From: Burkholderia sp. S171
GTDB taxonomy: Bacteria; Pseudomonadota; Gammaproteobacteria; Burkholderiales; Burkholderiaceae
DNA length: 64,000 nt
Reading direction: 5' to 3'
Assembly: GCF_009766085.1 (NCBI RefSeq)
Contig: NZ_LMUF01000042.1
Span: 72,083 to 136,082, forward strand
The stretch's first letter is position 1. Each line of letters begins with the position of its first letter. Below the pieces are notes generated by a model. The model had not been told where the DNA came from, did no database searches, and saw only the letters and a list, made by a program, of their open reading frames with translations. The position numbers and the translations under genes were made by a program. Below, piece by piece: positions 27,536-41,656 of this stretch.

Positions 27536-27558
27536 TGATGGAAATCCATCATTTTTTT
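27536..27558 (+). terminator. intrinsic-terminator-like hairpin in the leader of the oxygenase cluster
   Basis: TGATGG (27536-27541) and CCATCA (27546-27551) pair perfectly around AAAT and are followed at once by seven Ts (27552-27558). No plus-strand gene precedes it, so it would end a short RNA or attenuate the oxygenase transcript starting upstream. Confidence 0.5.
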
Positions 27559-27687: not shown

Positions 27688-28761
27688 ATGTCCTCGACAC
27701 CCGACGTCAGCGGCGGCGATGCGGCCACGCCCGGCCTCACCGATCCAAAGCTCGATGAGCGTATCGGCCAGCAGTGGTATCAGCCGCGCATCCCGCGCGC
27801 CGTTCTGAAAGAGCTGATGAAACGCAGCGATGCCGAAGGCCTCCGCAACTTCGTGCCATGGTTATTGTTGCTGGTTGCGTCGGGTTGGGTGGCTGCATTG
27901 TGTTGGGGTACGTGGTGGGCAGTGCCGGCCTTCCTGGTCTACGGCACGATCTATTCGTCCAGCGACGCCCGTTGGCACGAACTCGCTCATGGCACACCGT
28001 TCAAGACCCGCTGGCTCAACGACGCCTTCTACCACCTGTCTTCGTTCATGACGATCCGCGAAGGCTACTGGTGGCGCTGGAGTCACGCGCGGCATCACAC
28101 GCACACGTACTTTCAGGAGCGTGATCCGGAAATCCAGGTCGCACGGCCGACGCAGGTCTTGCCGATCTTTATCGATTTCTTCGGACTGCTGGGTAGTTCG
28201 CTTGAGATCCGCAAGGTCGTCCGGCATGCATTCGGCCGCGTAGATGCCACCACAGACGCGTTTCTCCCCGCCACCGAAAAACCAAAGATGATCTGGTCAT
28301 GCCGCATCTATCTGCTCGTGGTTATCGGCACGATTGGATTGGCTATCGCGCTCCACAGCTTCCTGCCGTTGATGTTCGTATGGACGCCCCGTTTTTACGG
28401 CGGCTGGCTGCATCAATTGCTCGGCCTGACGCAGCATGCGGGCCTCGCGGTCAACGTGAAAGACCATCGGCTGAACACACGCACCGTGTATATCAACCCG
28501 GTCTACCGCTTTCTGTACCTGAACATGAACTACCACCTCGAACACCATCTCCTGCCCATGGTGCCGTTTCACGCGTTGCCGCGTTTGCACGAAGTCATCA
28601 AGGATCAGCTTCCGCCCGCTTATCCGAGCCTTTACGCGGTGTATCGCGAGATGGTGCCCGCGTTATGGAAACAGCGTTCCGAGCCGGGCCATGTGATCGA
28701 ACGCACGGTGCCGGCTGAAAGCGCCCCGCACGGCTCATTCGCGACCCAGTCGGGCATCTGA
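27688..28761 (+). CDS. membrane fatty-acid-desaturase-like di-iron oxygenase (MocD-like)
   Basis: Integral-membrane di-iron enzyme of 357 residues. The histidine boxes are HELAH, HARHHTH and HLEHH near the C-terminus, with hydrophobic segments around residues 50-90 and 205-235. Superfamily members are desaturases, alkane hydroxylases and the rhizobial MocD protein. Its direct partners downstream are a MocE-like Rieske ferredoxin and a ferredoxin reductase, which together form a complete electron chain. By analogy with mocDEF, needed for O-demethylation of rhizopine, an O-demethylase or hydroxylase role on a small polar molecule is proposed rather than lipid desaturation. AGGAG sits seven bases before the ATG. 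Confidence 0.85.
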   Translation: MSSTPDVSGGDAATPGLTDPKLDERIGQQWYQPRIPRAVLKELMKRSDAEGLRNFVPWLLLLVASGWVAALCWGTWWAVPAFLVYGTIYSSSDARWHELAHGTPFKTRWLNDAFYHLSSFMTIREGYWWRWSHARHHTHTYFQERDPEIQVARPTQVLPIFIDFFGLLGSSLEIRKVVRHAFGRVDATTDAFLPATEKPKMIWSCRIYLLVVIGTIGLAIALHSFLPLMFVWTPRFYGGWLHQLLGLTQHAGLAVNVKDHRLNTRTVYINPVYRFLYLNMNYHLEHHLLPMVPFHALPRLHEVIKDQLPPAYPSLYAVYREMVPALWKQRSEPGHVIERTVPAESAPHGSFATQSGI

Positions 28762-28789
28762 AAACAACTCCAACAACCCGGAGGCTTTT

Positions 28790-29140
28790 GTGGCCGTTGA
28801 AACGAATGACATCGAATGGGTCGTCGCCTGCGCTGCCAGCGAGATTGCCGAGGAAGACGTAATCCGCTTCGATCATGCCGGCGCGAGTTACGCGGTGTAT
28901 CGGATAGCTGAAGGTTTTTTTGCGTCGGATGGCTGGTGCACGCACGAACGCGCACATCTTGCCGATGGCTTCGTGCTCAATCGGGAAATTGAATGCCCCC
29001 TGCATCAGGGACGTTTCGATATCCCCACAGGCAAGCCCAAAAGCCCGCCCGTCTGCGTCCATCTGAAGACCTACCCGGTGCGCATTGAAGGCGGCGAAGT
29101 GCTGCTCGGTGTACCGCCGCCAGCCAAGGCAGCGTCATGA
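28790..29140 (+). CDS. Rieske-type 2Fe-2S ferredoxin, MocE family
   Basis: Small soluble Rieske ferredoxin of 116 residues. The cluster ligands are C50-T-H52 and C69-P-L-H72, in WCTHERAHLADG and ECPLHQGRFD. It carries electrons from a reductase to an oxygenase. GGAGG five bases before the GTG start supports 28790. It is 28 bases downstream of the di-iron oxygenase, and its stop overlaps the reductase start as ATGA. The short acidic protein and gene order match the MocE ferredoxin of rhizopine clusters. Confidence 0.9.
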   Translation: MAVETNDIEWVVACAASEIAEEDVIRFDHAGASYAVYRIAEGFFASDGWCTHERAHLADGFVLNREIECPLHQGRFDIPTGKPKSPPVCVHLKTYPVRIEGGEVLLGVPPPAKAAS

Positions 29141-30390
29141 AAAACCGTCCTGCGATGGTGATCATCGGCGCCGGGCAAAGCGGAGCGCGCGCCGCCCATG
29201 CGTTGCGCGACAACGGCTGGGATGGTGAGATCACGCTGCTCGGCAACGAAGGGGTCGCGCCTTATGACAGGCCGCCGCTCTCCAAGGCCGTGCTGCTCGG
29301 TCAGAAAACCACCGCACAATGCGCGCTGTATGACGAGACGTTTTACTCAGAGCAACGCATCGACCTGCGTGTGAACGCCAGCGTTCAACAAATCGACCGT
29401 GCAGCGCGCAAGGTGATTTTGAAGGACGGGCATACCGTCGCCTATCAACGTCTGCTGATCGCCACGGGCGCGGCGCCACGGCGTCTGAGCGTGCCCGGTT
29501 CAACGCTTGAGGGCGTACATGTCTTGCGCACGGCAGCAGACGCGTCGAGTGTCGTCGGCGAGTTGTTGCCAGGACGGAAGATCGCGATTGTGGGTGCGGG
29601 GTTTATCGGGCTGGAGATTGCAGCGACCGCTATTGCAAGAGGGTGTGAAGTGATTGTGATCGAAGCCGCAGCGCGTGCGCTCATGCGCGCCGTGCCGGAG
29701 ATCGTTGCGGCGTATCTGGTGGAAAGGCACACGCAGATGGGCGTGGACGTGCGCTTCGCCGTGCAGGTCGACCGGATCATCGGATCAAACATGAAACGCG
29801 TCGCGGGCGTGAAGCTCTCCGACGGCACGACCGTCACGTGCGATTGCGTGATCGCCGGCATTGGCGTGAAGCCGCGCACGGAATTGGCGGAAGCGGCGGG
29901 TATCGACGTGGCAGATGGTATTGCCGTGGACGACACGCTGCGCACCAATGATCCGCACATTTTCGCAGCAGGCGATGTCTGCTCGTTTCCGCACCGGCTG
30001 TTCCGGCGGCGCATGCGGCTCGAATGCTGGAAGAACGCGGAGGACCATGCGCGGATTGTCGCGCGCAACATGCTGGACCGCGGCGAGACCTATTCCGAAG
30101 TGCCGTGGTTCTGGTCCGATCAATACGACATGACCATCCAGATTGCAGGCATGCCAGCGTTCGGCGTCACTTCCGTCGTACGCGAAACGAGCGCCGCATC
30201 GCGAGTCTTCTTTGCACTGGATCGCGATGGCGTGCTGGTCGGCGCGAGCGGAGTTGGACAGGCAAGCGAGATCGCGCGTGACGTGCGAGTAGCGCAGGAG
30301 TTGATTGCGCGGCGCGCATGTATTGAGCCTTCATTGCTCTCGGATCGAAGCGTCAAGCTCAAGCCGCTGCTTGCCGTGGAGGCGCTATGA
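29137..30390 (+). CDS. FAD-dependent ferredoxin reductase (MocF-like)
   Basis: Reductase of 417 residues of the putidaredoxin/BphA4 type. FAD binding motif IIGAGQSGARAAHAL at the N-terminus, PYDRPPLSK, the NAD(P)H motif IVGAGFIGLEIAA near residue 150 and the FAD-tail motif IFAAGDVCSFPH. It oxidises NAD(P)H and reduces the Rieske protein encoded just before, feeding the di-iron oxygenase. Both ends overlap neighbours by four bases, so ferredoxin, reductase and the TIM-barrel gene are translationally coupled. Confidence 0.92.
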   Translation: MKNRPAMVIIGAGQSGARAAHALRDNGWDGEITLLGNEGVAPYDRPPLSKAVLLGQKTTAQCALYDETFYSEQRIDLRVNASVQQIDRAARKVILKDGHTVAYQRLLIATGAAPRRLSVPGSTLEGVHVLRTAADASSVVGELLPGRKIAIVGAGFIGLEIAATAIARGCEVIVIEAAARALMRAVPEIVAAYLVERHTQMGVDVRFAVQVDRIIGSNMKRVAGVKLSDGTTVTCDCVIAGIGVKPRTELAEAAGIDVADGIAVDDTLRTNDPHIFAAGDVCSFPHRLFRRRMRLECWKNAEDHARIVARNMLDRGETYSEVPWFWSDQYDMTIQIAGMPAFGVTSVVRETSAASRVFFALDRDGVLVGASGVGQASEIARDVRVAQELIARRACIEPSLLSDRSVKLKPLLAVEAL

Positions 30391-31256
30391 CGCAACGGCT
30401 CGACATCTATCAGTCGCTATGGGCAATGGAGCGTCGTCACACCGACGGTCATGAGCGCTCTCTCGAAGACAACGTAACGATGATCGCGCAAGCGGGTTTC
30501 AACGGCGTCAGTGCGGGTTATGCATCGCGTGAAGACGTGCGCAGGTTTAGCGGTTTGCTAAAGCAGTTCGGTCTGCAAGCGGAAGGACAATGTTTTCCGC
30601 GCACGGTAGATGACCTGCAACCGATCCTTGAAATAGCCACCGAGTTCGGTGTGCATCACATCGACTTGCAACCGGATGTACGGCCGCGTCGACTGGATGA
30701 AGCGCTCAAGTTGATCGATGGATGGACGCGACTCGCCGAGCAAGTGGACTTTCCGGTGTATATCGAAACGCATCGGGACCGCATGACGACCGACCTGCAT
30801 TTCACGCTCGATCTGCTCGATGCCCGGCCTGATTTGAAATTGCTCGGCGATATCTCGCACTATCTCGTCGGGCGTGAATTCGCAGTGCCTGTGTCCGATG
30901 AAAACCATGCGGACATGCACCGGATCCTCGACCACTCGTGGGCGTTTCATGGCCGCATCGCCAGCCGCGAGCAAGTGCAGATAGAGATTTCGTTCGAGCC
31001 GCACCGGATATGGGTGGACCTGTTTCTCGACTGGTGGCGATACGGCTTTGCATCGTGGCAACGCCGCGCTGGTCCCGACGACACACTGGTCTTCACGTGC
31101 GAACTCGGACCCAAGCCTTACGCAATCATCGGCCGCGATGGCAACGACACAACCGACCGCTGGACCGAATCCCTGCTGATGCGCGACTGGATCCGCGATC
31201 TATGGAATGGCCTGAGCCTCAAGGAAAAACCCGCGCCCTTAGCGCTTAGTCGCTGA
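30387..31256 (+). CDS. sugar phosphate isomerase/epimerase-like TIM-barrel protein (MocC/IolE-like)
   Basis: Protein of 289 residues with the AP-endonuclease-2/xylose-isomerase TIM-barrel look. Candidate metal ligands are in VYIETHRD, KLLGDISHY and FTCELGPKPY. Relatives include IolE (inosose dehydratase), IolI and MocC, all acting on cyclitols or sugars, which suits the neighbouring transporter and SDR. The start overlaps the reductase stop by ATGA. Its 3' end overlaps the end of the convergent LacI gene by 11 bases (31246-31256). Confidence 0.82.
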   Translation: MTQRLDIYQSLWAMERRHTDGHERSLEDNVTMIAQAGFNGVSAGYASREDVRRFSGLLKQFGLQAEGQCFPRTVDDLQPILEIATEFGVHHIDLQPDVRPRRLDEALKLIDGWTRLAEQVDFPVYIETHRDRMTTDLHFTLDLLDARPDLKLLGDISHYLVGREFAVPVSDENHADMHRILDHSWAFHGRIASREQVQIEISFEPHRIWVDLFLDWWRYGFASWQRRAGPDDTLVFTCELGPKPYAIIGRDGNDTTDRWTESLLMRDWIRDLWNGLSLKEKPAPLALSR

Positions 31257-32286
31257 GCGGAAGGTTTTCGCGCAACAACACCGTGACCGGAATCTGCTGC
31301 GGCAACGCCACGCCGGGATCGCGATGATAGTGCCGCAAGATGATTTCGATGGAACGCATGGCTTCGGCGGCCGGGTTCTGGTCGAGCACGGCGTCAAGCG
31401 TTCCTTCAATGAGCAAGCGGCGCGAAATGTCGTTGAGTTCGTGGCCCACGAATACTGTCGAACGAACGCGGTCGAGCGCCTGGAGTGCTGCGCCGACACC
31501 TTCGTCGCCGACTGAAATGTTGTAGATGCCGCGCAGGTCCGGATAGCGCCGGAAGGCGTCGCGAGTGAGGCTTTCGGTGACCGCCGATTGCTCGCGGCTC
31601 TCGACCGTCTCCACGATGTCGCAGTTGGGAAAACGCCGCCGCAGTACCGAGCGGAAACCGCTTTCGCGTTCTTCATGGCCGAGGAAATCATGCATGCCCG
31701 TCATCACGAGCACCTTGCCTCCCGCATCGCCGAGAAAGCGGCCCATGAGCTCGCCCGCGACGCGTCCAGCCCCGCGATTGTCGATCCCCACATAGGCAAG
31801 TCTTCCCGTTCCCGGCAGATCGCTGGCGAGCGTGACGACCGGCATCGTGCGGCTGACCTGACGCAACGCCGCCGTGATGTCGGGATGCTCATACGCGACG
31901 ATGATCAGCGCGTCGGCCTTCTGCGTCGCGCGACTGATGGTCTCGACTACGCGCGCCGGTTCGAGGTTGTCGAAGTAGGTCACGGCGCAGATCACGCGCT
32001 GCGCCTCGAACGCCTTCTGGGCAATTTCAAAACCCTGCTTGAGATAGATGTAATACGGCGCAACGGGTTGTTGCAACAGGATGGCGATACGCAGCCAGCG
32101 GACGGACACCGCGTCGAGCGCCCGATCAATCTTGAGCTTGCGCGCCCATTCGAGTACGCGCCGCTCCTTCTCGCGCGAGACGCCGCCGCGACCGTTGAGC
32201 ACGCGGTCCACGGTTGCCTCGCTGACGTCGGCGGCCTTGGCGATATCGGCCATGCTCGTTTTACGGCGGTGGGTCAGGTCGGGCAT
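31246..32286 (-). CDS. LacI-family regulator of the oxygenase/sugar-transport cluster
   Basis: Regulator of 346 residues with an N-terminal LacI headpiece (MADIAKAADVSEATVDRVLN) and a periplasmic-binding-type effector domain of the RbsB-like kind (PYYIYLKQGFEIAQ, GHEERESGFRSVL). The VDRVLNGRGGV hinge variant is typical of regulators of sugar or cyclitol ABC operons. It is divergent from the ABC transporter genes and convergent with the oxygenase genes, so it could repress both arms. The ATG at 32286 fits the headpiece. Confidence 0.9.
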   Translation of the reverse strand: MPDLTHRRKTSMADIAKAADVSEATVDRVLNGRGGVSREKERRVLEWARKLKIDRALDAVSVRWLRIAILLQQPVAPYYIYLKQGFEIAQKAFEAQRVICAVTYFDNLEPARVVETISRATQKADALIIVAYEHPDITAALRQVSRTMPVVTLASDLPGTGRLAYVGIDNRGAGRVAGELMGRFLGDAGGKVLVMTGMHDFLGHEERESGFRSVLRRRFPNCDIVETVESREQSAVTESLTRDAFRRYPDLRGIYNISVGDEGVGAALQALDRVRSTVFVGHELNDISRRLLIEGTLDAVLDQNPAAEAMRSIEIILRHYHRDPGVALPQQIPVTVLLRENLPLSD

Positions 32287-32484
32287 GGGCCTTACACGGT
32301 TTAGGAAAATGAACCACGGGACTGACCCGATGATCGCATCAACTGCACTGACCGATCAAGCGAGTGCATGAAGTGAAGCCCCAATAAGTCACCGGCCACG
32401 AACGGCGACAGCAGTACCCCGCACGCCGGCCTGACATTCGCACCGCGGATGCAGCCGCGCACGGGACATAACAGGAGACAGGAG

Positions 32485-33495
32485 ATGGCCCGGAGATTCA
32501 GTACATTCCAAACGCGTTCGAAGTTCGCGATAGCCGCATGCATCACGTCCACGCTTTTCGCTGCGAGCGTTGCTCGCAGCGCGGAGCCGCTGAACATTGT
32601 GATGCTGACACATGGCGCGGCGACCAACGCATTCTGGCAGGCCGTGAAGAAAGGTTTCGACGATGCCTGCACGCGCGTTCAGGCACATTGCCAGATAGTC
32701 TTTACCCAAACCGACGGTTCGATCGAACAGCAAAGCGCAAACTTCCAGGCCGCGGTCGCGCGCAAACCCGATGCAATCCTGACGACCATTGTGGATGACA
32801 ACGCGCTCACGCCGATGATCAACGACGCCCGCGCGAAGCACATCATTGTGATTGCTTTTAACGTCGATCAAAGCGGTGGCGCAGCGGGTGCAGCGAAACG
32901 GCAGGCGTTTATCGGCCAGAATTTTGTCCCGGCCGGGCGCAGTCTCGCGCATCAACTCACCAGCCAGTTTCCGAAAGACGGACCGATCCGCGTGCTGATC
33001 GGTGTCAGCGCGCCGGGGCAGAACTGGGCCGAGCAACGCGCGAAAGGCGTGATGGAAGGTCTCGATGAATGGAAGCGCGCCAATCCGACTCGCACCGTTG
33101 TGATCGACCGGATCGATTCGGGCACGGATCTCTCGGTGACAGGTGAACGCGTTGGCGCATATCTCACTGCGCACCCCGATACAACAGCGTACTTCGACAT
33201 GGGTTTCTTCCATGCAGCAGTAGCACGCACATTGCAGGACCGCAACGTGCCGCCGGGCAAGGTGCTGCTTGCGGGCTTCGATATCGTGCCGCAAGTCCTG
33301 CAGATGATGAAGGCCGGTTACATTCAGGCCGAGGTCGATCAGCAACCGTATGCGCAGGGGTTCATGCCCGTGATGCAGGTGTATCTCGCGAAATCTTTCG
33401 GCCTTGCACCCACCGATATCAACACCGGCAATTCGCTCGTCATGCCCGCTCAGGCGGACTCGGTCATCGCGCTCTCGCAACAAGGCTTGCGCTAG
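32485..33495 (+). CDS. sugar ABC transporter substrate-binding protein (RbsB/MocB-like)
   Basis: Periplasmic sugar-binding protein of 336 residues. A signal peptide ends near residue 32 (SVARSAEP). The mature part resembles ribose/inositol/rhizopine-binding proteins, with HGAATNAFWQAVKKGFDDA and the hinge region in RVLIGVSAPGQNWAEQRAKG. The ATG at 32485 has AGGAG seven bases upstream; the longer frame to 32449 adds no recognisable leader. First gene of a plus-strand operon with permease, ATPase and SDR. Confidence 0.92.
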   Translation: MARRFSTFQTRSKFAIAACITSTLFAASVARSAEPLNIVMLTHGAATNAFWQAVKKGFDDACTRVQAHCQIVFTQTDGSIEQQSANFQAAVARKPDAILTTIVDDNALTPMINDARAKHIIVIAFNVDQSGGAAGAAKRQAFIGQNFVPAGRSLAHQLTSQFPKDGPIRVLIGVSAPGQNWAEQRAKGVMEGLDEWKRANPTRTVVIDRIDSGTDLSVTGERVGAYLTAHPDTTAYFDMGFFHAAVARTLQDRNVPPGKVLLAGFDIVPQVLQMMKAGYIQAEVDQQPYAQGFMPVMQVYLAKSFGLAPTDINTGNSLVMPAQADSVIALSQQGLR

Positions 33496-33504
33496 GAGAT
33501 TCGC

Positions 33505-34485
33505 ATGAAAAAGCTGCTCAAGATCTATCTGCAGAAGCCGGAATTGGCGGGCATCGTATTGCTCGCGGTGTTGATCGGCTTGTTCCAGGTGCGCTCGCAG
33601 ATGATATTTCTCAGCGCCGAAAATATCCGTGGCGTGCTTGGCGTGTTGCCTGAAGTAGGACTGGTGGCTATAGGCGTGACGCTGCTGATGATCTGCGGTG
33701 AGTTCGATTTATCGGTGGGATCGGTTTTTGCGCTCACACCGATGTCGATCACACTGTTGATGAATGCCGGCGTGCCATTCTGGCCGGCATTTTTTATCGG
33801 GCTGGTGGTAGCCGCGTGCGTGGGACTCGCGAACGGATTGATCACACTGGTCTTCAACATACCGAGCTTCATCACGACGCTCGGCATGTTGTTCATCGTG
33901 CGATCACTGACCGTCGTGCTATCCGGTGGCTTTCCGCCAAATCTGCCGATCGAACGAATGCCCGCGCAGCTTTTCGTGAGTTTCATCGGGCCGGAGGGAT
34001 TGTTTCGCGCGTCGTTTCTTTGGTTCATCGCCATTGGTGCGGCGGCGGCATTCTTGCTGTCCGCGACCAATCTTGGGAACTGGATGAAAGCGACCGGCGG
34101 CTTCCTTGAAGCGTCCATATCGAGCGGTGTGCCGGCGCGGCGCGTGAAGCTGTTCTCCTTCGTGCTGTGCTCGGTGCTTGCCGGTTTCGCCGGCTTGATC
34201 CAGGTGCTACGGCTAGGCGCGGCGCTTCCTTCAATAGGCGATGGTCTTGAGCTGCAAGCAGTGGCCGCTGCCGTGATCGGCGGGACCGCGCTGTCTGGCG
34301 GGATTGGCAATGTGCTCGGTGCGGTGGTCGGTGCCCTGCTGATTCGCGTGATCGATAACGGCCTGGTGCTGACGCAAGTCGATGCCAACTGGTTCAAGTT
34401 CGCGGTTGGCAGCCTGACCATCTTCGCGGTCGTCGCCAACGCATGGATGCGCCGCACGGCTCGACATCTGAAGGTGCAGCTATGA
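33505..34485 (+). CDS. sugar ABC transporter permease (RbsC-like)
   Basis: Very hydrophobic protein of 326 residues with eight to ten helices and the family segment GEFDLSVGSVFALTPM near residue 70. The C-terminal ALSGGIGNVLGAVVGALLI motif is typical of ribose/inositol-class permeases. AGGAG precedes the ATG at good spacing. The stop overlaps the ATPase start by ATGA. Confidence 0.92.
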   Translation: MKKLLKIYLQKPELAGIVLLAVLIGLFQVRSQMIFLSAENIRGVLGVLPEVGLVAIGVTLLMICGEFDLSVGSVFALTPMSITLLMNAGVPFWPAFFIGLVVAACVGLANGLITLVFNIPSFITTLGMLFIVRSLTVVLSGGFPPNLPIERMPAQLFVSFIGPEGLFRASFLWFIAIGAAAAFLLSATNLGNWMKATGGFLEASISSGVPARRVKLFSFVLCSVLAGFAGLIQVLRLGAALPSIGDGLELQAVAAAVIGGTALSGGIGNVLGAVVGALLIRVIDNGLVLTQVDANWFKFAVGSLTIFAVVANAWMRRTARHLKVQL

Positions 34486-35288
34486 ACACACTCTCCTCCG
34501 CTGCTCACCCTACCGGTCTACGCTCGCATGAAGACACCACCGCCGACGCGCTGAGCACATCGACTTCGCTGATGGCCGTACGCAACTTGCACAAATGGTA
34601 CTCCGGCGTGCATGCGCTCAAAGGCGTGAGCCTCGAATTCAAACGCGGCGAAGTCGTGGGTCTGCTCGGCGACAACGGCGCGGGCAAGTCGACGCTCATC
34701 AAGATTCTCTCGGGGGTGCATCGGCCCGATGAAGGCGAGATCCTGTTCCAGGGCCGGCCTGTGCGCATCCCCACGCCGAAAGCGGCGATGCAGTTAGGTA
34801 TCGAAACGATCCATCAGAACAACTCACTCGTGCCGAATCTGTCGATTGCGCGCAATCTGTTTATCGGGCGCGAACCGCTGTTGTTTTCGCTGTTTGGCAT
34901 TGGTCCCATGGACCATGCGCGCATGCGTACCGACGCCGTCAAAGCCATAGCAGATGTTGACCTGCATCTGCGTTCCGCAGAAGCGCTGCTAGGAGAACTA
35001 TCGGGCGGCCAGCGCCAGGGCGTAGCGATTGCGCGCGCGATGCATTTCAAGTCGAAACTGCTGATCCTCGATGAACCGACGAATCATTTATCCGTGAAGG
35101 AGACGGACAAGGTGATCGGGTTTGTGCGGGGCCTATCGGCGCAGGGCATTACCGGCGTGTTCATCAGCCACAACCTGCAGCACGTGTTTCACTCGTGCGA
35201 CCGGATTGTCGCGATGGCGCGTGGCGAAGTCGTGCTCGACCGGCCGGTGGCGCAGACGTCTATCGAAGAAGTGACCGAGATGCTTTGA
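34482..35288 (+). CDS. sugar ABC transporter ATP-binding protein (single-domain)
   Basis: ATPase of 268 residues with one nucleotide-binding domain: Walker A GDNGAGKST, signature LSGGQRQGVAIARAM and Walker B LLILDEPTNHLS. Ribose-class transporters usually have a double-length RbsA; this one is half that length, so it probably works as a homodimer (as in FrcA-type fructose importers). The start at 34482 follows from the four-base overlap with the permease; the open frame upstream belongs to the permease region. Confidence 0.92.
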   Translation: MNTLSSAAHPTGLRSHEDTTADALSTSTSLMAVRNLHKWYSGVHALKGVSLEFKRGEVVGLLGDNGAGKSTLIKILSGVHRPDEGEILFQGRPVRIPTPKAAMQLGIETIHQNNSLVPNLSIARNLFIGREPLLFSLFGIGPMDHARMRTDAVKAIADVDLHLRSAEALLGELSGGQRQGVAIARAMHFKSKLLILDEPTNHLSVKETDKVIGFVRGLSAQGITGVFISHNLQHVFHSCDRIVAMARGEVVLDRPVAQTSIEEVTEML

Positions 35289-35319
35289 TCGAATCGACTA
35301 CAGAGTGGAGAATAAATCG

Positions 35320-36129
35320 ATGGGACAGTCCGACGGCAAGGTGGCTGTTGTCACCGGTGGTACACAGGGGCTTGGCGCGGCGATCGCGGCGCTGTTCGTT
35401 GAGCGCGGAGCGAGAGGCGTGGTTATTTGCGGGCGCTCGAAGGAGAAGGGCGAAGCGAAGGCGCGTGAACTGAGCGAGGCAAGCGGCGCAGACGTGCGTT
35501 ATATGCAAGCGGATCTTTCGCAAGTCGACGATTGCCGGGCGGTGATCGCGGCGGCGGACGCGCGGTTCGGCCGTATCGATGTACTGGTCAATGCAGCGGC
35601 CGTGACTGATCGCGGCACGATCCTGGATACCGATCCCGCGCTCTTCGACAGCATCTTTTCAACCAACGTGCGAGCGCCGTTCTTCCTGATGCAGGAGGCC
35701 ATTCGCGTCATGCGGCGCGAGCGCATTGAAGGGTCGATCGTCAACATCTGCTCGATGTCCGCGATGGCAGGGCAACCGTTCATTGCTGCGTATTGCGCGT
35801 CGAAGGGAGCGCTGGCCACGCTCACGCAGAACACGGCTTACGCGCTGCTGCGTAACCGGATTCGGGTGAATGGCTTGAATCTCGGCTGGATGGCGTCCGA
35901 TGGCGAGGATCGGATTCAGCGGGAATATCACGGCGCGGCCGACGACTGGCTGACGCAGGCGAGTGCTGCGCAGCCATTTGGGCGATTGATCGACCCGCAG
36001 GAAGCGGCGCGTGCGGTGGCGTTTCTGGCGAGTGGAGAGTCAGGTCTGATGACGGGGTCGATGGTGAACTACGATCAATCGGTATGGGGTGCGTTCGACG
36101 ACGCGCCGCATCCGGGAGTAGCGCTTTAG
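35320..36129 (+). CDS. short-chain dehydrogenase/reductase
   Basis: NAD(P)-dependent SDR of 269 residues. Cofactor motif TGGTQGLGAA, structural NAAA element in VLVNAAAVTD, and the catalytic serine and YxxxK in SMSAMAGQPFIAAYCASKGA. It closes the ABC operon (31 bases after the ATPase) and probably oxidises the imported polyol or the demethylated product. The ATG at 35320 has GGAG upstream; a GTG five codons earlier is less likely. Confidence 0.9.
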   Translation: MGQSDGKVAVVTGGTQGLGAAIAALFVERGARGVVICGRSKEKGEAKARELSEASGADVRYMQADLSQVDDCRAVIAAADARFGRIDVLVNAAAVTDRGTILDTDPALFDSIFSTNVRAPFFLMQEAIRVMRRERIEGSIVNICSMSAMAGQPFIAAYCASKGALATLTQNTAYALLRNRIRVNGLNLGWMASDGEDRIQREYHGAADDWLTQASAAQPFGRLIDPQEAARAVAFLASGESGLMTGSMVNYDQSVWGAFDDAPHPGVAL

Positions 36130-36186: not shown

Positions 36187-37890
36187 TCACCCGTTAAGCC
36201 TACTCCTGCGCATCTTCGAAAACGTGACCGTCTCAAACAGCTCATAAACCGCAGTCGGCGTCTGATCTGCCCCGACCGCGTGATAGTAGTTCATCGTAAT
36301 GGTGGTCTTGCCGCCCGGCTTCCCCGGATCATGATCGAACACGGCAATGCCGTAACCCGTACCCGTATCGCGCTGCGCCGACCAAATCGCATCTTCCAGC
36401 GCATCGGCAGGCTGACGCACGAACGTGGTCGCCGCGGTCCCGGGTATAGGCCGGTTGGGCTTGGTGAACACCTTTGCCTGCACATTGCCGGTTCCGGTAT
36501 CCAGCCCATAGACATCCAACGGCGCACTCGTGCCGCCACCGCCCAGGATCAGGTGGATCGTGCCCTGGCTGGTATCGAACGCGCCGTCAGCCGGATTCGA
36601 CGTAATGACCGGACGAGGCTGCAGCGTATCCACCGGTTCGCCCGTCACGGCATCCGTGCCCGCATGATGATTGCACCCGCGCACGGGATAGCTGCGCTCG
36701 TAATCATGATCATGGCCGCAGAGTACGAGATCGACGCCATGGCGGTCGAACAAGGGCAGCCACGCCTCCCGGATGCCCTTGTCGGAGCCATTGCCAGTCT
36801 TCGAGGAAGTCAGCGCATCCTGGTGCATCTGGACGACGATCCAGTCGATATCCTTGTCCTCGGCCGCCCGGCGCAATGTCTCGCCTAGCCAGCGCGTCTG
36901 CTCACCGTGACTGTAGCCGCGTACATAGAGCGACGTGCCCGGGGCAATCGGCGGATTGCCGGTACTCGCCGCCGGCACCAAAGGATCCGGACCGGCGACG
37001 AAAGCTGCCGCGTCCTGGTAGACCACGTCATCCGCATCGAGCGACACGAACAGCACCGAACTCACACGGAAGCTATACCAGCGGCCGGGGAAACGCGTGC
37101 CATTCTCCGGCAACGTATAACGCGCCAGATACGAGTCAAGTCCCTGCTCGCCGTTATTGAATTCCAGCTCATGATTACCCGGACAAGGCATCCAGGGACG
37201 ATTGGCCGCCGAGGTCTGCGCATTGTTGCCGAAGTCGCGCCATACCTCGGGCTGATGGGCCGGGTTCAGGTTGGCATAGCAGAGATCGCCGTTGAGCAAG
37301 TGAAACAGCGGCTGGAACCGCTCCACTGCCTGCACGGCGAAGCGGCTCTGCGGCGACGAGAGCACCCAGCCGGTATTCGGCGTGGCAAGGTCACCATAGC
37401 TGGTCCAGCGAAACGGAGCCCGGCCGTGCGGGGCAGTCTGGAAACTCGCCGTGAAGGGGTGGGCCGCATTGCTGTCGTTGTCGGCGGTGACTTCATACTC
37501 GTAGTTGACCGCGGGTTTCAGTCCATGGAGACGCGCGTGATACGTGCAGACAATCTCGCCGTTGAGTCCATCGGTATAAGTACGTTGTACGCCATGCACG
37601 GTTACCCGGGTCTCACCGGCACGGCCGAAGCGCACACGTGGATTGACCGCCGGGGCGAGCGAGGCCCACGAGATCACCACCTCAGCCCACGGCTCCTTGC
37701 CCCAGGTCAGGTGGATCTGCTCAGGCGTGCCGTCCGGGTTCACGGCAGCCGTAGCGGCCCGGCTAGCTGAAGCCAGACCGCCTGCAGCCGTTGCCAGTCC
37801 GGAAGCACCGGCAAGCTTGAGAAAACCGCGTCGGGAAACAGTCGCGCCCTGCTCGGCCGGAAGAAGATCGTCAATGTTCTTGTTCGACAT
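36187..37890 (-). CDS. Tat-exported purple acid phosphatase-like metallophosphoesterase
   Basis: Periplasmic phosphoesterase of 567 residues. The twin-arginine signal SRRGFLKLAGASG lies near residues 30-45. An N-terminal fibronectin-like domain (residues about 60-160) precedes the catalytic domain. Metal-binding motifs are those of purple acid phosphatases in order: SYGDLATP, NGDLCYAN, GNHE, VVQMHQD and GHDHDYERSYP. It should hydrolyse phosphate esters at acidic or neutral pH. The ATG at 37890 (MSNKNIDD) gives a normal Tat leader; a GTG at 37935 would add 15 residues. It stands alone on the minus strand. Confidence 0.92.
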   Translation of the reverse strand: MSNKNIDDLLPAEQGATVSRRGFLKLAGASGLATAAGGLASASRAATAAVNPDGTPEQIHLTWGKEPWAEVVISWASLAPAVNPRVRFGRAGETRVTVHGVQRTYTDGLNGEIVCTYHARLHGLKPAVNYEYEVTADNDSNAAHPFTASFQTAPHGRAPFRWTSYGDLATPNTGWVLSSPQSRFAVQAVERFQPLFHLLNGDLCYANLNPAHQPEVWRDFGNNAQTSAANRPWMPCPGNHELEFNNGEQGLDSYLARYTLPENGTRFPGRWYSFRVSSVLFVSLDADDVVYQDAAAFVAGPDPLVPAASTGNPPIAPGTSLYVRGYSHGEQTRWLGETLRRAAEDKDIDWIVVQMHQDALTSSKTGNGSDKGIREAWLPLFDRHGVDLVLCGHDHDYERSYPVRGCNHHAGTDAVTGEPVDTLQPRPVITSNPADGAFDTSQGTIHLILGGGGTSAPLDVYGLDTGTGNVQAKVFTKPNRPIPGTAATTFVRQPADALEDAIWSAQRDTGTGYGIAVFDHDPGKPGGKTTITMNYYHAVGADQTPTAVYELFETVTFSKMRRSRLNG

Positions 37891-38167
37891 GTCTGGTGTT
37901 CTAGTCCTTGAGAGGAAAAGCCAGCGAGGCACCACGGCGGCGCAGAGAGCAGACCGGCTCGAAGAACTGCATTATTGCCAGATGCGTTTACCGGGCCATG
38001 ACATGGTTGCAGTAATTTGCTTTTGCCGCGAAATCTGTATTATCCCGCCAGCGATTGGCGGCATTTCCGTCGGGATGCACACCACTGAACAAGGTGTCGG
38101 GACATTCCGCTTACGCTAATCATTCGGTCGAACCGCGCTTTTTGCGCATTAAATAACAGGGATAAAA

Positions 38168-41100
38168 ATGCCCGAGCATACTGCTGTCGACCAGCTTGGC
38201 TTTCGCCGCATAATTCGTCGCAACATCGCGCTGCCGATCGGTGCGGGCTTGACGACCGCCGCGGTATTCGTCGCCCTTCTGTTCTATCTGCTGTCGGCCA
38301 TGGACTGGCTCGACCACTCTGAGCGCGTAGTCGCCGACGGCAACGACCTGATCAAGATAGCCGTCGATCGCGAGTCCGGCTTGCGGGGTTTCCTGGTCAC
38401 CGGCGACGACGCCTATCTTGCGCCTTACGAATTGGGTCATGCCAGTTTCACGGCGAAGCTGGCTACGCTGACCGATCTCGTCAGCGACAACCCGCCGCAA
38501 ATCGAACGTCTGAAACGTATCGGCGCACTGGAGGCGCAGTGGGACGGGATTGCCGGACAACTCATCACCTTGCGTCGTGCAAACCAGGATTACCTGGGCG
38601 TCATGCGAACCGGCAAGGGAAAGCTCGAGTTCGATGAAATGCGCCGTGAGTTCAATACCTTCATGGATGTCGAGTTAAACCTGCGCTGGGAACGTACAGC
38701 AACGGTCAGGCGCGTCACCATCACCGCCGTGGCACTGTTCCTCGGCATCAGCCTTTCGCTTAGCTTGCTGCTCGCCCTGCTTGGCCGGCGCGAGCTGACG
38801 AATCTGTCGACCACCTACGATCGCGCACTGCGGGCGCAGACCGAACACACTGAAACCCTGCAACAACAAGCGTGGTTGCGTACCGGGCAGAGCCTGCTGG
38901 GGGAAAGCGCCGCCGGACAACAGGCGCTGCCGCAACTCAGCCGAGCGATGCTCGAGTTTCTTGCCCAGTACCTCGGCGTGGTAGTCGCGGCGCTTTATGT
39001 CCGCGATGAAACCGGCACGCTACGTCGCGAGGCCGCCTACGGTTTCAGCCGCGAAAACGAAGAGCGCCCACAATCCTTTACCGGCACGCAGACGCTGGTC
39101 GGACAAGCTGCCACAGATGGCCGGCTGATCGAAGTCGAGAACATCCCGGACAACTATCTCAAGGTGACATCGGGACTGGGAACGAGCGCGCCGAAGAGCG
39201 TCGTCATGGCACCGATCGAGAACGGCGGCAGGGTGAATGGCGTGTTAGAACTCGGGTTCATGAAGCCGGTATCGGCGCGGGACATCGAATTCCTGAAGCT
39301 GATCGCAGGAAACATGGGCGCGTCGGTTGAAGCGGCACTGTATCGCCAACGCCTGCAGGACACACTCGAGGAAACGCAACGTCTCAACGAGGAAATGCAG
39401 CTTCAACAGGAAGAATTGCGCACCGCGAATGAGGAACTCGAAGAGCAGACCGCTGCGCTCGAAGAGTCGCAAGCGGATCTGGGCAATCAGAAAGCGGAGC
39501 TCGAATCGATCAACGAGCAGCTCACTTTCCAGGCCCTTGCACTCGATCAAAAGAACGAGGAACTCAGCCATGCTCAAGCAGAACTGGAACAGCGCGCCGA
39601 CGACCTGCAGCGTGCCAGTCAGTACAAGTCAGAATTCCTGGCAAACATGTCGCACGAGTTGCGCACGCCGCTCAATAGTTCGCTGATCCTTGCCAAACTG
39701 CTGTCGGAAAACCAGGGCGGAAATTTAAGCGCCGAGCAAGTCAAGTTCGCCAATACGATCTATTCAGCCGGCAACGATCTGCTCAACCTGATCAACGACA
39801 TCCTCGACATCTCCAAGGTCGAGGCAGGCAAGCTTGAACTCGCGCCGGAAGATGTATCGATGCGCCGCCTGGTTGAATCGTTGAAGCGGACCTTCGAGCC
39901 GCTTGCCGCCCAAAAGCAATTGAAATTCGTCGTCGATATAACGGCGGACATGCCGTCATCCCTATTCACCGATTCGCGGCGGCTGGAACAGATTCTCAAG
40001 AACCTTCTCTCGAATGCAGTGAAGTTCACCGACGCGGGTACCATCCTGCTCGCCTTGGGTGTGGACAGCGGCAATCGGGTGCGCTTTGCCGTAACAGACA
40101 CGGGTATCGGCATTGCGCCGGAACACCAGCAAGCGATTTTCGAAGCATTCCGTCAAGCCGATGGAACCACTAGCCGGCGCTATGGCGGCACGGGCCTGGG
40201 CCTGTCGATCTCGCGCGATCTTGCAACGCTGCTTGGCGGTGCGATCCGCGTAAGCAGCACACTCGGCGCAGGCAGCACGTTCGAGCTGACGCTGCCCACT
40301 CAGTGGACGGACATCAGCGCGCCGATAAAACATGCCCCTGCATTAGCGGCACCGGCACCTATGCCGCGGCCGACTCCGGCCGTCGTCGCGCCGACTCAGA
40401 CACAAGCCTCCCCGGCGCAAGACGTGGCAGCGTATGCCGACGATCGCGCGAACTGGACACCCGGCCGCCGATCGGTGCTTGTGATTGAAGACGACGTGTC
40501 ATTCGCCGGAATTCTGTTCGAGCTTGCCCATGAAATGCAGTACGGCTGCCTGGTCGCACAGACCGCAGTTGAAGCACTGCAACTCGCCGCGCAGCACTTG
40601 CCTGATGCCATTCTTCTCGACATCGGCTTACCGGATCGGTCGGGCCTCGCGCTGCTGCAGCAGTTGAAAGACGGGCCGCTCACGCGTCACATTCCTGTGC
40701 ATGTAGTGTCTGCTGTTGATAGTAGCGAGGCCGCCTTGCATCTTGGCGCAATCGGCTATGCAATCAAGCCGACCACGCGCGAGCAACTGAAGGACATCTT
40801 CCACAAGCTGGAGGAAAAATTCACGCAGAAGGTCAAGCGCGTACTGCTGGTGGAAGACGACGCACGCCAGCGCGAAAGCATCGTGCAACTCATTGCGGAC
40901 GGCGATATCGACATCACCGCCGTCGAGCTTGGCGAAGAGGCGCTGGCGCTGCTGCGAACGACTATCTTCGACTGCATGATCATCGACTTGAAGTTGCCCG
41001 ACATGCAAGGCGGCGAGTTGCTGCGGAAGATGTCGAGCGAAAGCATGTGCTCTTTCCCGCCGGTGATCGTTTATACCGGACGCAACCTGACGCATGCGGA

Positions 41101-41656
41101 AGAAGCCGAGCTGTTGAAATATTCGCGCTCGATCATCATCAAGGGCGCGCGCTCGCCCGAACGCTTGCTGGATGAAGTCACCCTGTTCCTGCACAAGGTC
41201 GAAGCCGACCTGTCGTACGAACGACAAACCATGTTAAAGGCGGTGCGTAGCCGGGATCGTGCCTTCGAGGGCCGGCGCATCCTGCTCGTCGACGACGATA
41301 TCCGCAACATCTTCTCGTTGAGCAGCGCGCTCGAGCATAAGGGCATGACGGTGGAGATCGCACGCAACGGCTTCGAAGCGATCACCCAGTTAAACGAAAC
41401 ACCGGACATCGACCTCGTGCTGATGGACGTGATGATGCCCGGCATGGACGGACTCGAGGCCACGCGCCGGATTCGCACCGACCCTCGCTTTGCCAGCCTG
41501 CCGATCATTGCGATTACAGCGAAAGCGATGAAAGACGATCAGGAACAGACTCGTGTAGCGGGCATGACGGACTATCTCGCCAAGCCGATCGATCTGGACC
41601 GGCTCTATTCGCTGCTGCGCGTGTGGCTACCGAGCGTTGAACGGATGCGGGGCTGA
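38168..41656 (+). CDS. hybrid sensor histidine kinase (CHASE3-GAF-HisKA-HATPase-three receivers)
   Basis: Membrane kinase of 1162 residues. Order: transmembrane helix near 20-45, periplasmic CHASE3 domain (DRESGLRGFLVTGDD), second helix near 188-212, GAF domain about 250-395, a long Glu/Gln-rich coiled coil about 400-490, HisKA with phosphorylated His496 in MSHELRTPL, and an ATPase domain with DTGIGI and GGTGLGLSI. Three receiver domains follow, with phospho-aspartates at about 818, 940 and 1087. All catalytic motifs look intact. The multi-receiver layout suggests a phosphorelay or internal phosphate sink. There is no adjacent response regulator; a single-domain receiver is encoded at 26157-26507. 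Confidence 0.94.
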   Translation: MPEHTAVDQLGFRRIIRRNIALPIGAGLTTAAVFVALLFYLLSAMDWLDHSERVVADGNDLIKIAVDRESGLRGFLVTGDDAYLAPYELGHASFTAKLATLTDLVSDNPPQIERLKRIGALEAQWDGIAGQLITLRRANQDYLGVMRTGKGKLEFDEMRREFNTFMDVELNLRWERTATVRRVTITAVALFLGISLSLSLLLALLGRRELTNLSTTYDRALRAQTEHTETLQQQAWLRTGQSLLGESAAGQQALPQLSRAMLEFLAQYLGVVVAALYVRDETGTLRREAAYGFSRENEERPQSFTGTQTLVGQAATDGRLIEVENIPDNYLKVTSGLGTSAPKSVVMAPIENGGRVNGVLELGFMKPVSARDIEFLKLIAGNMGASVEAALYRQRLQDTLEETQRLNEEMQLQQEELRTANEELEEQTAALEESQADLGNQKAELESINEQLTFQALALDQKNEELSHAQAELEQRADDLQRASQYKSEFLANMSHELRTPLNSSLILAKLLSENQGGNLSAEQVKFANTIYSAGNDLLNLINDILDISKVEAGKLELAPEDVSMRRLVESLKRTFEPLAAQKQLKFVVDITADMPSSLFTDSRRLEQILKNLLSNAVKFTDAGTILLALGVDSGNRVRFAVTDTGIGIAPEHQQAIFEAFRQADGTTSRRYGGTGLGLSISRDLATLLGGAIRVSSTLGAGSTFELTLPTQWTDISAPIKHAPALAAPAPMPRPTPAVVAPTQTQASPAQDVAAYADDRANWTPGRRSVLVIEDDVSFAGILFELAHEMQYGCLVAQTAVEALQLAAQHLPDAILLDIGLPDRSGLALLQQLKDGPLTRHIPVHVVSAVDSSEAALHLGAIGYAIKPTTREQLKDIFHKLEEKFTQKVKRVLLVEDDARQRESIVQLIADGDIDITAVELGEEALALLRTTIFDCMIIDLKLPDMQGGELLRKMSSESMCSFPPVIVYTGRNLTHAEEAELLKYSRSIIIKGARSPERLLDEVTLFLHKVEADLSYERQTMLKAVRSRDRAFEGRRILLVDDDIRNIFSLSSALEHKGMTVEIARNGFEAITQLNETPDIDLVLMDVMMPGMDGLEATRRIRTDPRFASLPIIAITAKAMKDDQEQTRVAGMTDYLAKPIDLDRLYSLLRVWLPSVERMRG

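Follow-up and report, generated by a model that had tools for sequence, protein, structure and literature searches.

The window analysed here is a stretch of 64,000 nucleotides from Burkholderia sp. S171 (contig NZ_LMUF01000042.1; host genome size 8.49 Mb), and its positions 27688–36129 carry nine intact genes that may together encode a LacI-controlled pathway for an O-methylated cyclitol; an open reading frame (ORF) check and domain searches found them in the order described by a first-pass annotation, which had been made from the letters alone. The plus strand encodes a MocD-like membrane di-iron oxygenase of the FA_desaturase superfamily (D, P0001, 27688–28761), a MocE-like Rieske [2Fe-2S] ferredoxin with a GTG start (E, P0002, 28790–29140), an FAD-dependent ferredoxin-NAD(P) reductase (F, P0003, 29137–30390) and a xylose-isomerase-like TIM barrel, putatively a keto-inositol dehydratase, isomerase or epimerase (C, P0004, 30387–31256). 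A gene for a LacI-family regulator with LacI and Peripla_BP_4 domains (P0005, 31246–32286, minus strand) lies convergent with C and divergent from a second plus-strand series, which encodes a substrate-binding protein (SBP; P0006, 32449–33495), a permease (P0007, 33505–34485) and a half-size ATPase (P0008, 34443–35288), all of the CUT2 class, and a short-chain dehydrogenase/reductase (SDR) of the PRK06198 subfamily (P0009, 35305–36129). We read D-E-F-C (27688–31256) as one presumable operon and SBP-permease-ATPase-SDR (32449–36129) as a second, with lacI between them; E/F and F/C each overlap by 4 bp, so that D-E-F-C look coupled. The first-pass annotation named all nine genes and overlooked what lies in front of them: on the minus strand, a divergent gene for a PhyH-family Fe(II)/2-oxoglutarate dioxygenase (P0010, 26522–27376; Pfam PhyH, 68.0 bits, cut-off 22) and, between it and D, the palindrome TGATGGAAATCCATCA (27536–27551), by its conservation a candidate LacI operator. 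A second palindrome-like site with the core GATGATCGCATC (32327–32342), for which the evidence is weaker, lies just upstream of lacI. The GC content of the cluster genes resembles that of the PhyH gene and of the downstream neighbours (0.58–0.63).

That these genes form a coupled set of oxygenase, ferredoxin, reductase and TIM barrel accompanied by a LacI regulator, an ABC transporter and an SDR, as the annotation had proposed, is upheld: eight of the nine proteins carry the stated domains and C was placed by alignment and an AlphaFold2 model. D matches Pfam PF00487 (FA_desaturase) with 123.4 bits (cut-off 29.7), and the eight histidines of its three boxes (H97, H101, H133, H136, H137, H283, H286, H287) remain unchanged throughout an alignment of 38 sequences that contains the window's, as in a membrane di-iron oxygenase of this superfamily; the GntB and CrtR models are weak NCBIfam matches. 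Among the best 80 of 214 relatives and the genus-mates, the nearest named ones are from Caballeronia (e.g., C. sordidicola, 96%), and among those 80 the nearest outside the Burkholderiaceae are from Chloroflexi (59–61%). We accordingly take the host for a soil bacterium of the genus Caballeronia. A quick tree of 68 rows puts D into a Burkholderiaceae clade of 12 rows with support 100, which groups with sequences from Anaerolineae and two from Alphaproteobacteria; the genome's own lipid-type family member and two other family members stand far from D. This tree was rooted on the lipid-type member (so called from a reading of its sequence), which as the outgroup could not have nested with D, and the outgroup branches are long; we regard only the position of D inside the Burkholderiaceae clade as firm. 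MocD of Sinorhizobium meliloti L5-30 is not among the rows of this tree. E matches the Pfam Rieske model with 60.6 bits (cut-off 20.3) and, best of seven families, TIGR02377 (MocE) with 130.1 bits, slightly under the cut-off of 136.15; F matches Pyr_redox_2 (237.9 bits, cut-off 26.1) as well as Reductase_C and resembles HcaD and AndAa, under the cut-offs of both models. In three Anaerolineae/Chloroflexi loci (L078, L080, L082; L numbers denote the loci compared) D and E are naturally fused in a single reading frame (about 480 codons), an arrangement that speaks for E passing electrons to D.

C has no Pfam or NCBIfam match at E ≤ 0.001; an alignment of 32 sequences, itself included, and the AlphaFold2 model (pLDDT 88) identify it as a xylose-isomerase-like TIM barrel. 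IolE structures are among those nearest to the model, and hhalign gives a probability of 60.7% for IolE, 13.7% for the rhizobial-type TIM family (seven proteins) and 6.6% for hydroxypyruvate-isomerase-like proteins; C fails the equivalog model for IolE, the myo-inosose-2 dehydratase (TIGR04379), and IolI (1i60) is not among the best 50 structures listed, which excludes nothing. The SDR has an adh_short domain and matches NF004847 with 454.5 bits (cut-off 240). Its relatives occur beside D of other clades, namely in a second Caballeronia clade (L043, L046; 80–83%), in the Chloroflexi locus L082 (60%) and in L197 of genome G404 (46%), which points to a common step before or after demethylation.

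The transporter has the Peripla_BP_4 SBP, BPD_transp_2 permease (132 bits) and sugar-type ATPase (ABC_tran) of the CUT2 class; the ATPase has one ATP-binding domain instead of two, matching only positions 3–237 of 501 of the RbsA model. The best NCBIfam match of the SBP is the rhizopine SBP model NF052284, at 137.8 bits against a cut-off of 420, and relatives at E ≤ 1e-60 were found in only 2 of 200 family genomes, its own included. A Paraburkholderia metagenome-assembled genome (MAG) whose D, C and LacI are 82, 80 and 82% identical to those of the window (L072) carries, after D-E-F-C, a TIM gene and another CUT2 transporter, the SBP of which shares 58% identity with its counterpart in an inositol cluster of Marivivens; behind its LacI gene (L072:19655–20410) lies a 47-residue remnant of a window-type SBP (E 5.6e-12). 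Such an apparent swap suggests an identical or similar substrate for the two transporters. Next to the remnant, the end of the contig truncates a formaldehyde dehydrogenase gene, which may be there only through the deletion and is not among the two such genes counted below.

D has a match at E ≤ 1e-3 in 40 of 58 genus genomes, with at least 84% identity in 10 of the 58 (its own included), and at E ≤ 1e-50 in 28 of 398 phylum genomes. In the 28 other loci with D identity of at least 75%, here called orthologous, genes near D include E in 27, F in 25, LacI (80–99% identical) in 23, C in 20, SDR in 13 and PhyH in 8; these counts are lower bounds, given the shortness of some contigs and the interruption of some SDR matches. 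Ten loci scored for a permease, in two of which (L071, L072) the match reaches only about 30%, leaving the window type in eight. The recurrence of LacI, E, F and C near D indicates that the cluster is more than a chance assembly, and by these neighbourhoods its core is LacI-D-E-F-C, with the SDR frequent and transporter and PhyH optional; in C. udeis (L057) the locus is degraded, F, most of C and most of the transporter being lost. LacI-D-E-F-C recurs in Paraburkholderia, in Pseudomonas and, rearranged, in rhizobia. For wider comparison 105 D loci were scored, drawn from one scan (the best 80 of 214 relatives), the genus-mates and hand-picked loci; 13 duplicates, the short locus L181 and the 4-kb loci L001–L031 were left out, and a few same-strain pairs remain (L118/L120, L125/L126).

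The palindrome between phyH and D, TGATGGAAATCCATCA, would be bound by the window's LacI. The exact form TGATGGNNNNCCATCA occurs once in the 8.49-Mb genome, at this site, and is present in 25 of the 28 orthologous loci, upstream of D in 24 and upstream of PhyH in one (Paraburkholderia sartisoli, L075, which has a one-mismatch copy upstream of D); the remaining three have the one-mismatch copy TGAGGG...CCATCA upstream of D. With up to three mismatches allowed TGATGGNNNNCCATCA has 37 matches in the window against 25.7 expected, and the exact site alone was used. The broader palindrome TGATNG-N4-CNATCA was found in 52 of the 105 D loci (53 sites in 1.99 Mb), against 0–3 sites per replicate in ten first-order Markov replicates, and in none of 53 loci lacking D (0.55 Mb; fetched for other reasons, not a random sample). 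Of 27 named Pseudomonas loci, 24 have a sister palindrome, TGATAGAAAACTATCA, in the stretch that separates LacI from D. The rhizobial locus L198 has the exact palindrome form between LacI and a TIM gene, the kind of place given for the FixV-dependent promoter in a passage of PMC3538637; most other rhizobial D loci do not have it. A search of 199 Rhizobiaceae genomes for TGATGGAANNCCATCA found 14 sites, spread over 13 of them: one (L233) is the L198 place between LacI and TIM genes, two (L224, L235) lie between a LacI gene (40–44% to the window's) and a divergent IolE-like gene (26–28%), the L235 site falling inside a called ORF and no D match being present in the 3-kb stretch taken of either, and the other 11 show no markers except a purU fragment (L234). 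In rhizobia the exact form is thus rare and marks few LacI-D sets. In the Burkholderia genome 25 further sites differ from TGATGGNNNNCCATCA by one mismatch, compared with 4 for the reversed pattern; 14 places were fetched, 12 of them within called ORFs and none next to a recognisable iol or formaldehyde gene (an iolA match at L221 reaches only 32%), so that these 14 places revealed no wider regulon. Upstream of LacI, an ATGCGAT core is present in the window and in all 22 other loci looked at, a motif derived from the alignment of these same loci and hence weaker evidence; this second site is possibly an autoregulatory or a transporter operator. Another LacI-type motif, ANCGNTNNCGNT, was dropped, with 14 matches in the window against 14.7 expected.

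A clue to the substrate comes from the neighbours of D elsewhere. Genes of the inositol (iol) pathway, scored at a minimum of 45% identity over at least 180 residues within 9 kb of D, were found in 7 of the 105 loci (L061, L084, L108, L119, L137, L138, L197); about one would be expected by chance, an estimate from genome sizes and not a run control. In Aidingimonas (L084) iolC-iolD-iolE-iolA-iolG-SBP is followed by LacI-D-E-F-D, in Plasticicumulans (L119) the order is iolA-iolG-ABC-D-E-F-C-LacI-iolC, Marivivens (L138) has LacI-D-E-KPHMT-LacI-TIM-ABC-iolG-iolC-iolD (KPHMT, ketopantoate hydroxymethyltransferase-like), and L197 has KPHMT-F-E-D and LacI-ABC-iolG-SDR; L137 is from Peteryoungia. A further 15 loci (14 Pseudomonas-type, one Chloroflexi) have iolG-like genes, the two tested being under the iolG cut-offs, and a gene of L082 is nearest to inositol/D-chiro-inositol dehydrogenase (261 bits, cut-off 540). 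KPHMT proteins use methylene-folate. Such a gene, which may handle formaldehyde-derived carbon, is near D in nine of the 105 loci (L082, L108, L132, L136–L139, L197, L198), the two proteins tested being under the PanB cut-offs; class III (glutathione-dependent) formaldehyde dehydrogenase is found in two, the paralogous Caballeronia loci L047 and L050, and purU in one. The L047 dehydrogenase passes TIGR02818 (623.5 bits, cut-off 543.95); its neighbours are paralogues of D and E and an inositol/rhizopine-type SBP that scores 231 bits, below its cut-off, and shares 69% identity with the SBP of the iol cluster in the window's own genome. The genome to which L047 belongs (G046) also has a window-type cluster. 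The iol cluster of the Burkholderia genome lies on contig 35 and comprises IolG (417 bits, cut-off 355), IolC/J (1086.8, 600), IolD (919.6, 715), IolE (400.4, 290) and IolB (332.2, 205), all above their cut-offs, so that free inositol could probably be used.

We put it at somewhat better than an even chance that these genes serve, under LacI control, to use an O-methylated cyclitol, of which a plant O-methyl-inositol such as pinitol or ononitol is the likeliest; oxidative O-demethylation by D-E-F is likely, and O-methyl-inositol is our best guess at the substrate. The ABC transporter would import the cyclitol, and electrons would pass from NAD(P)H via F (FAD) and E (Rieske) to the membrane-bound D, which would hydroxylate the O-methyl carbon, whereupon formaldehyde would leave and free inositol remain. 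The SDR may oxidise inositol or an inosose, and C, as a metal-dependent TIM barrel, may isomerise or dehydrate the keto-inositol and so feed the iol pathway on the other contig, while general glutathione- or folate-linked enzymes would clear the formaldehyde. LacI would repress D-E-F-C, and perhaps the divergent phyH, at TGATGGAAATCCATCA until substrate or product appears; the PhyH gene may thus share palindrome and regulon with D. We infer every catalytic step, the substrate and the binding of the regulator from sequence. Of the annotation's idea of import and oxidative O-demethylation of a methylated inositol, inosamine or sugar, the inositol and sugar options keep their footing through the iol (7), KPHMT-like (9) and formaldehyde dehydrogenase (2) genes among the 105 loci, and the inosamine option is weak.

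Several points weigh against an O-methyl-inositol. The window cluster itself has no iol or one-carbon (C1) gene, nor have most of the 105 loci, and L061 is the sole one of the 28 orthologous loci with an iol-like gene within 9 kb, an iolD-like gene in a separate, oppositely oriented gene set. The hand-picked part of the sample comprises seven genome loci and six plasmid regions, and supplies three (L137, L138, L197) of the seven with iol genes; the marker queries came partly from scored loci, which guarantees self-matches in L047, L082, L094, L101, L119, L137 and L138. The nearest transporter relatives seen outside the Burkholderiaceae (Ensifer, S. meliloti; 54–61%) are in acid-sugar type operons, and the Ensifer SBP scores 134.8 on the rhizopine model, equal to the window's, so that the SBP does not discriminate as a clue to the substrate. 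In Pseudomonas syringae, mocDEF together with a xylA-like gene (xylA2) is described in passages of PMC5132102, where the function is judged unclear. The main rival, to which we give a lesser though real chance, holds that D demethylates a methylated hexose or deoxysugar (e.g., O-methyl-fucose or O-methyl-rhamnose), the SDR forming a keto sugar or lactone and C acting as a ketose epimerase. Against it, the SDR of Ensifer shares only 30% identity with the window's, L082, of the Chloroflexi group with D at 59–61%, has the gene nearest to inositol dehydrogenase along with the 60% SDR, and the transporter of L072 is apparently replaced by a relative of the Marivivens inositol cluster. RhaT-like symporters are near D in five of the 105 loci; in L089, L090, L091 and L094 (Verrucomicrobia and an unclassified MAG) a RhaT-like sugar symporter, again pointing away from inositol, stands beside D and E, and L090 and L094 also have a distant TIM barrel, perhaps a methyl-deoxysugar version.

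Improbable in our view is that D hydroxylates or desaturates a small molecule (e.g., at a ring or side chain) and demethylates nothing, the sugar genes handling the product: the superfamily includes hydroxylases, the weak GntB and CrtR matches would fit, and many loci (e.g., L088, L093, L096, L110) have no C1 or iol marker in the flanks fetched, yet the C1 pairing (KPHMT-like 9, formaldehyde dehydrogenase 2, purU 1 of 105) is harder to explain if no methyl is released. We think it very improbable that the cluster is a betaproteobacterial moc operon for true rhizopine (3-O-methyl-scyllo-inosamine). Passages of PMC10107442 give the rhizopine genes of S. meliloti L5-30 and Rhizobium leguminosarum bv. 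viciae as mocDEF-mocR-mocBA-mocC; D, E and F agree with mocDEF in order and family, with no curated MocD model matched, the SBP is of sugar type and matches the rhizopine SBP best, and a further catabolic gene (MocC in moc) is present. Unlike moc, the window has LacI instead of the GntR/aminotransferase-type MocR and SDR instead of the Gfo/Idh/MocA-type dehydrogenase MocA, its own permease and half-size ATPase, an SBP (MocB, 137.8 against 420) and a ferredoxin (130.1 against 136.15) under the rhizopine-family cut-offs, and no transaminase or MocA-type dehydrogenase among the ten proteins searched; membership was rejected on the regulator, the missing dehydrogenase and the SBP score, and the annotation was right in calling the set not identical to moc operons. 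Rhizopines are called rare in nature in passages of PMC6668481, yet 288 plasmid records, most of them from Rhizobium (148) and Sinorhizobium (85), contain D matches, and LacI is near D in all six plasmid regions scored. The rhizopine SBP itself is over cut-off in 4 of 398 phylum genomes and in 44 of 146 of one rhizobial genus; none of 17 such loci (L168–L171, L184–L196) has D in the 5.8–20 kb taken, nine having at least two iol genes, seven more an IolE-like gene and one neither. In L168, L169 and L184–L190, from rhizobial and related genomes, over-cut-off NF052284 proteins stand in iol clusters that have no D, and the equivalog name may be too narrow. Least credible of all is a lipid desaturase system that adjoins a sugar transporter by chance, for which only the Pfam family name speaks; D reaches 44.8 bits on the DesB model NF052549 (cut-off 500), lies far from the genome's lipid-type member and is conserved together with LacI, C and SDR, and the idea was rejected on score and tree distance. 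The clustering of D with lipid desaturases, which the annotation would have taken as refutation, did not appear as far as the analysis was run, a long branch leading to the outgroup.

The O-methyl-inositol reading also bears on sets described before, and the annotation's suggestion that the substrate may be new finds no support here; LacI-D-E-F-C has already been noticed, and the window is a new arrangement of a known, poorly understood module and not a new kind of system. Passages of PMC3538637 note LacI/FixV-mocDEF-Msi119 sets in rhizobia, which like the window have LacI beside D-E-F and a TIM barrel gene, the exact palindrome included in L198; unlike them the window has a C of a different TIM family (hhalign 13.7%), a D only about 50% identical and no KPHMT-like gene. 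The Pseudomonas LacI-D-E-F-C set is probably the P. syringae mocDEF with xylA2 known from passages of PMC5132102; it shares the five genes (C 50–54% identical) and the sister palindrome, and differs in that no window-type ABC operon with SDR was found nearby, LacI is divergent from D and not convergent with C, and iolG-like, SBP and TIM genes lie upstream in many strains. The likeness of C to IolE lies in its fold and, weakly, in its profile, and the product could be passed on to the iol cluster of the genome. The oxygenase and the SDR of the window cluster are, to our knowledge, foreign to the iol pathway.

Plants are rich in O-methyl-inositols, the bacterial breakdown of which seems poorly described: the titles and abstract openings listed include no report of a bacterial pinitol demethylase, and the passages of the literature compared contain no test of these genes on O-methyl-inositols. 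Ononitol is proposed as a rhizopine precursor in a passage of PMC6668481, and root exudate induces mocDEF homologues in Rhizobium mesoamericanum according to passages of PMC5789663. Tentatively, and with more doubt than confidence, we suggest that FixV-type LacI, the operator TGATRG-N4-CYATCA and D-E-F could form one widespread methyl-cyclitol regulon of Burkholderiaceae, Pseudomonas and rhizobia, of which the FixV of Mesorhizobium, the activator of nifA2 in Lotus nodules, would be a co-opted member with a plant O-methyl-inositol (such as pinitol or ononitol) as inducer. If so, many genes annotated "fatty acid desaturase" would have to be renamed plant-cyclitol demethylases, the operator would make the regulon searchable, and the signal may matter in root and nodule bacteria.

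Downstream of the cluster, reading by eye found a metallophosphoesterase-like gene (36187–37935) and a large hybrid sensor kinase gene (38168–41656), relatives of which recur in some Caballeronia loci.

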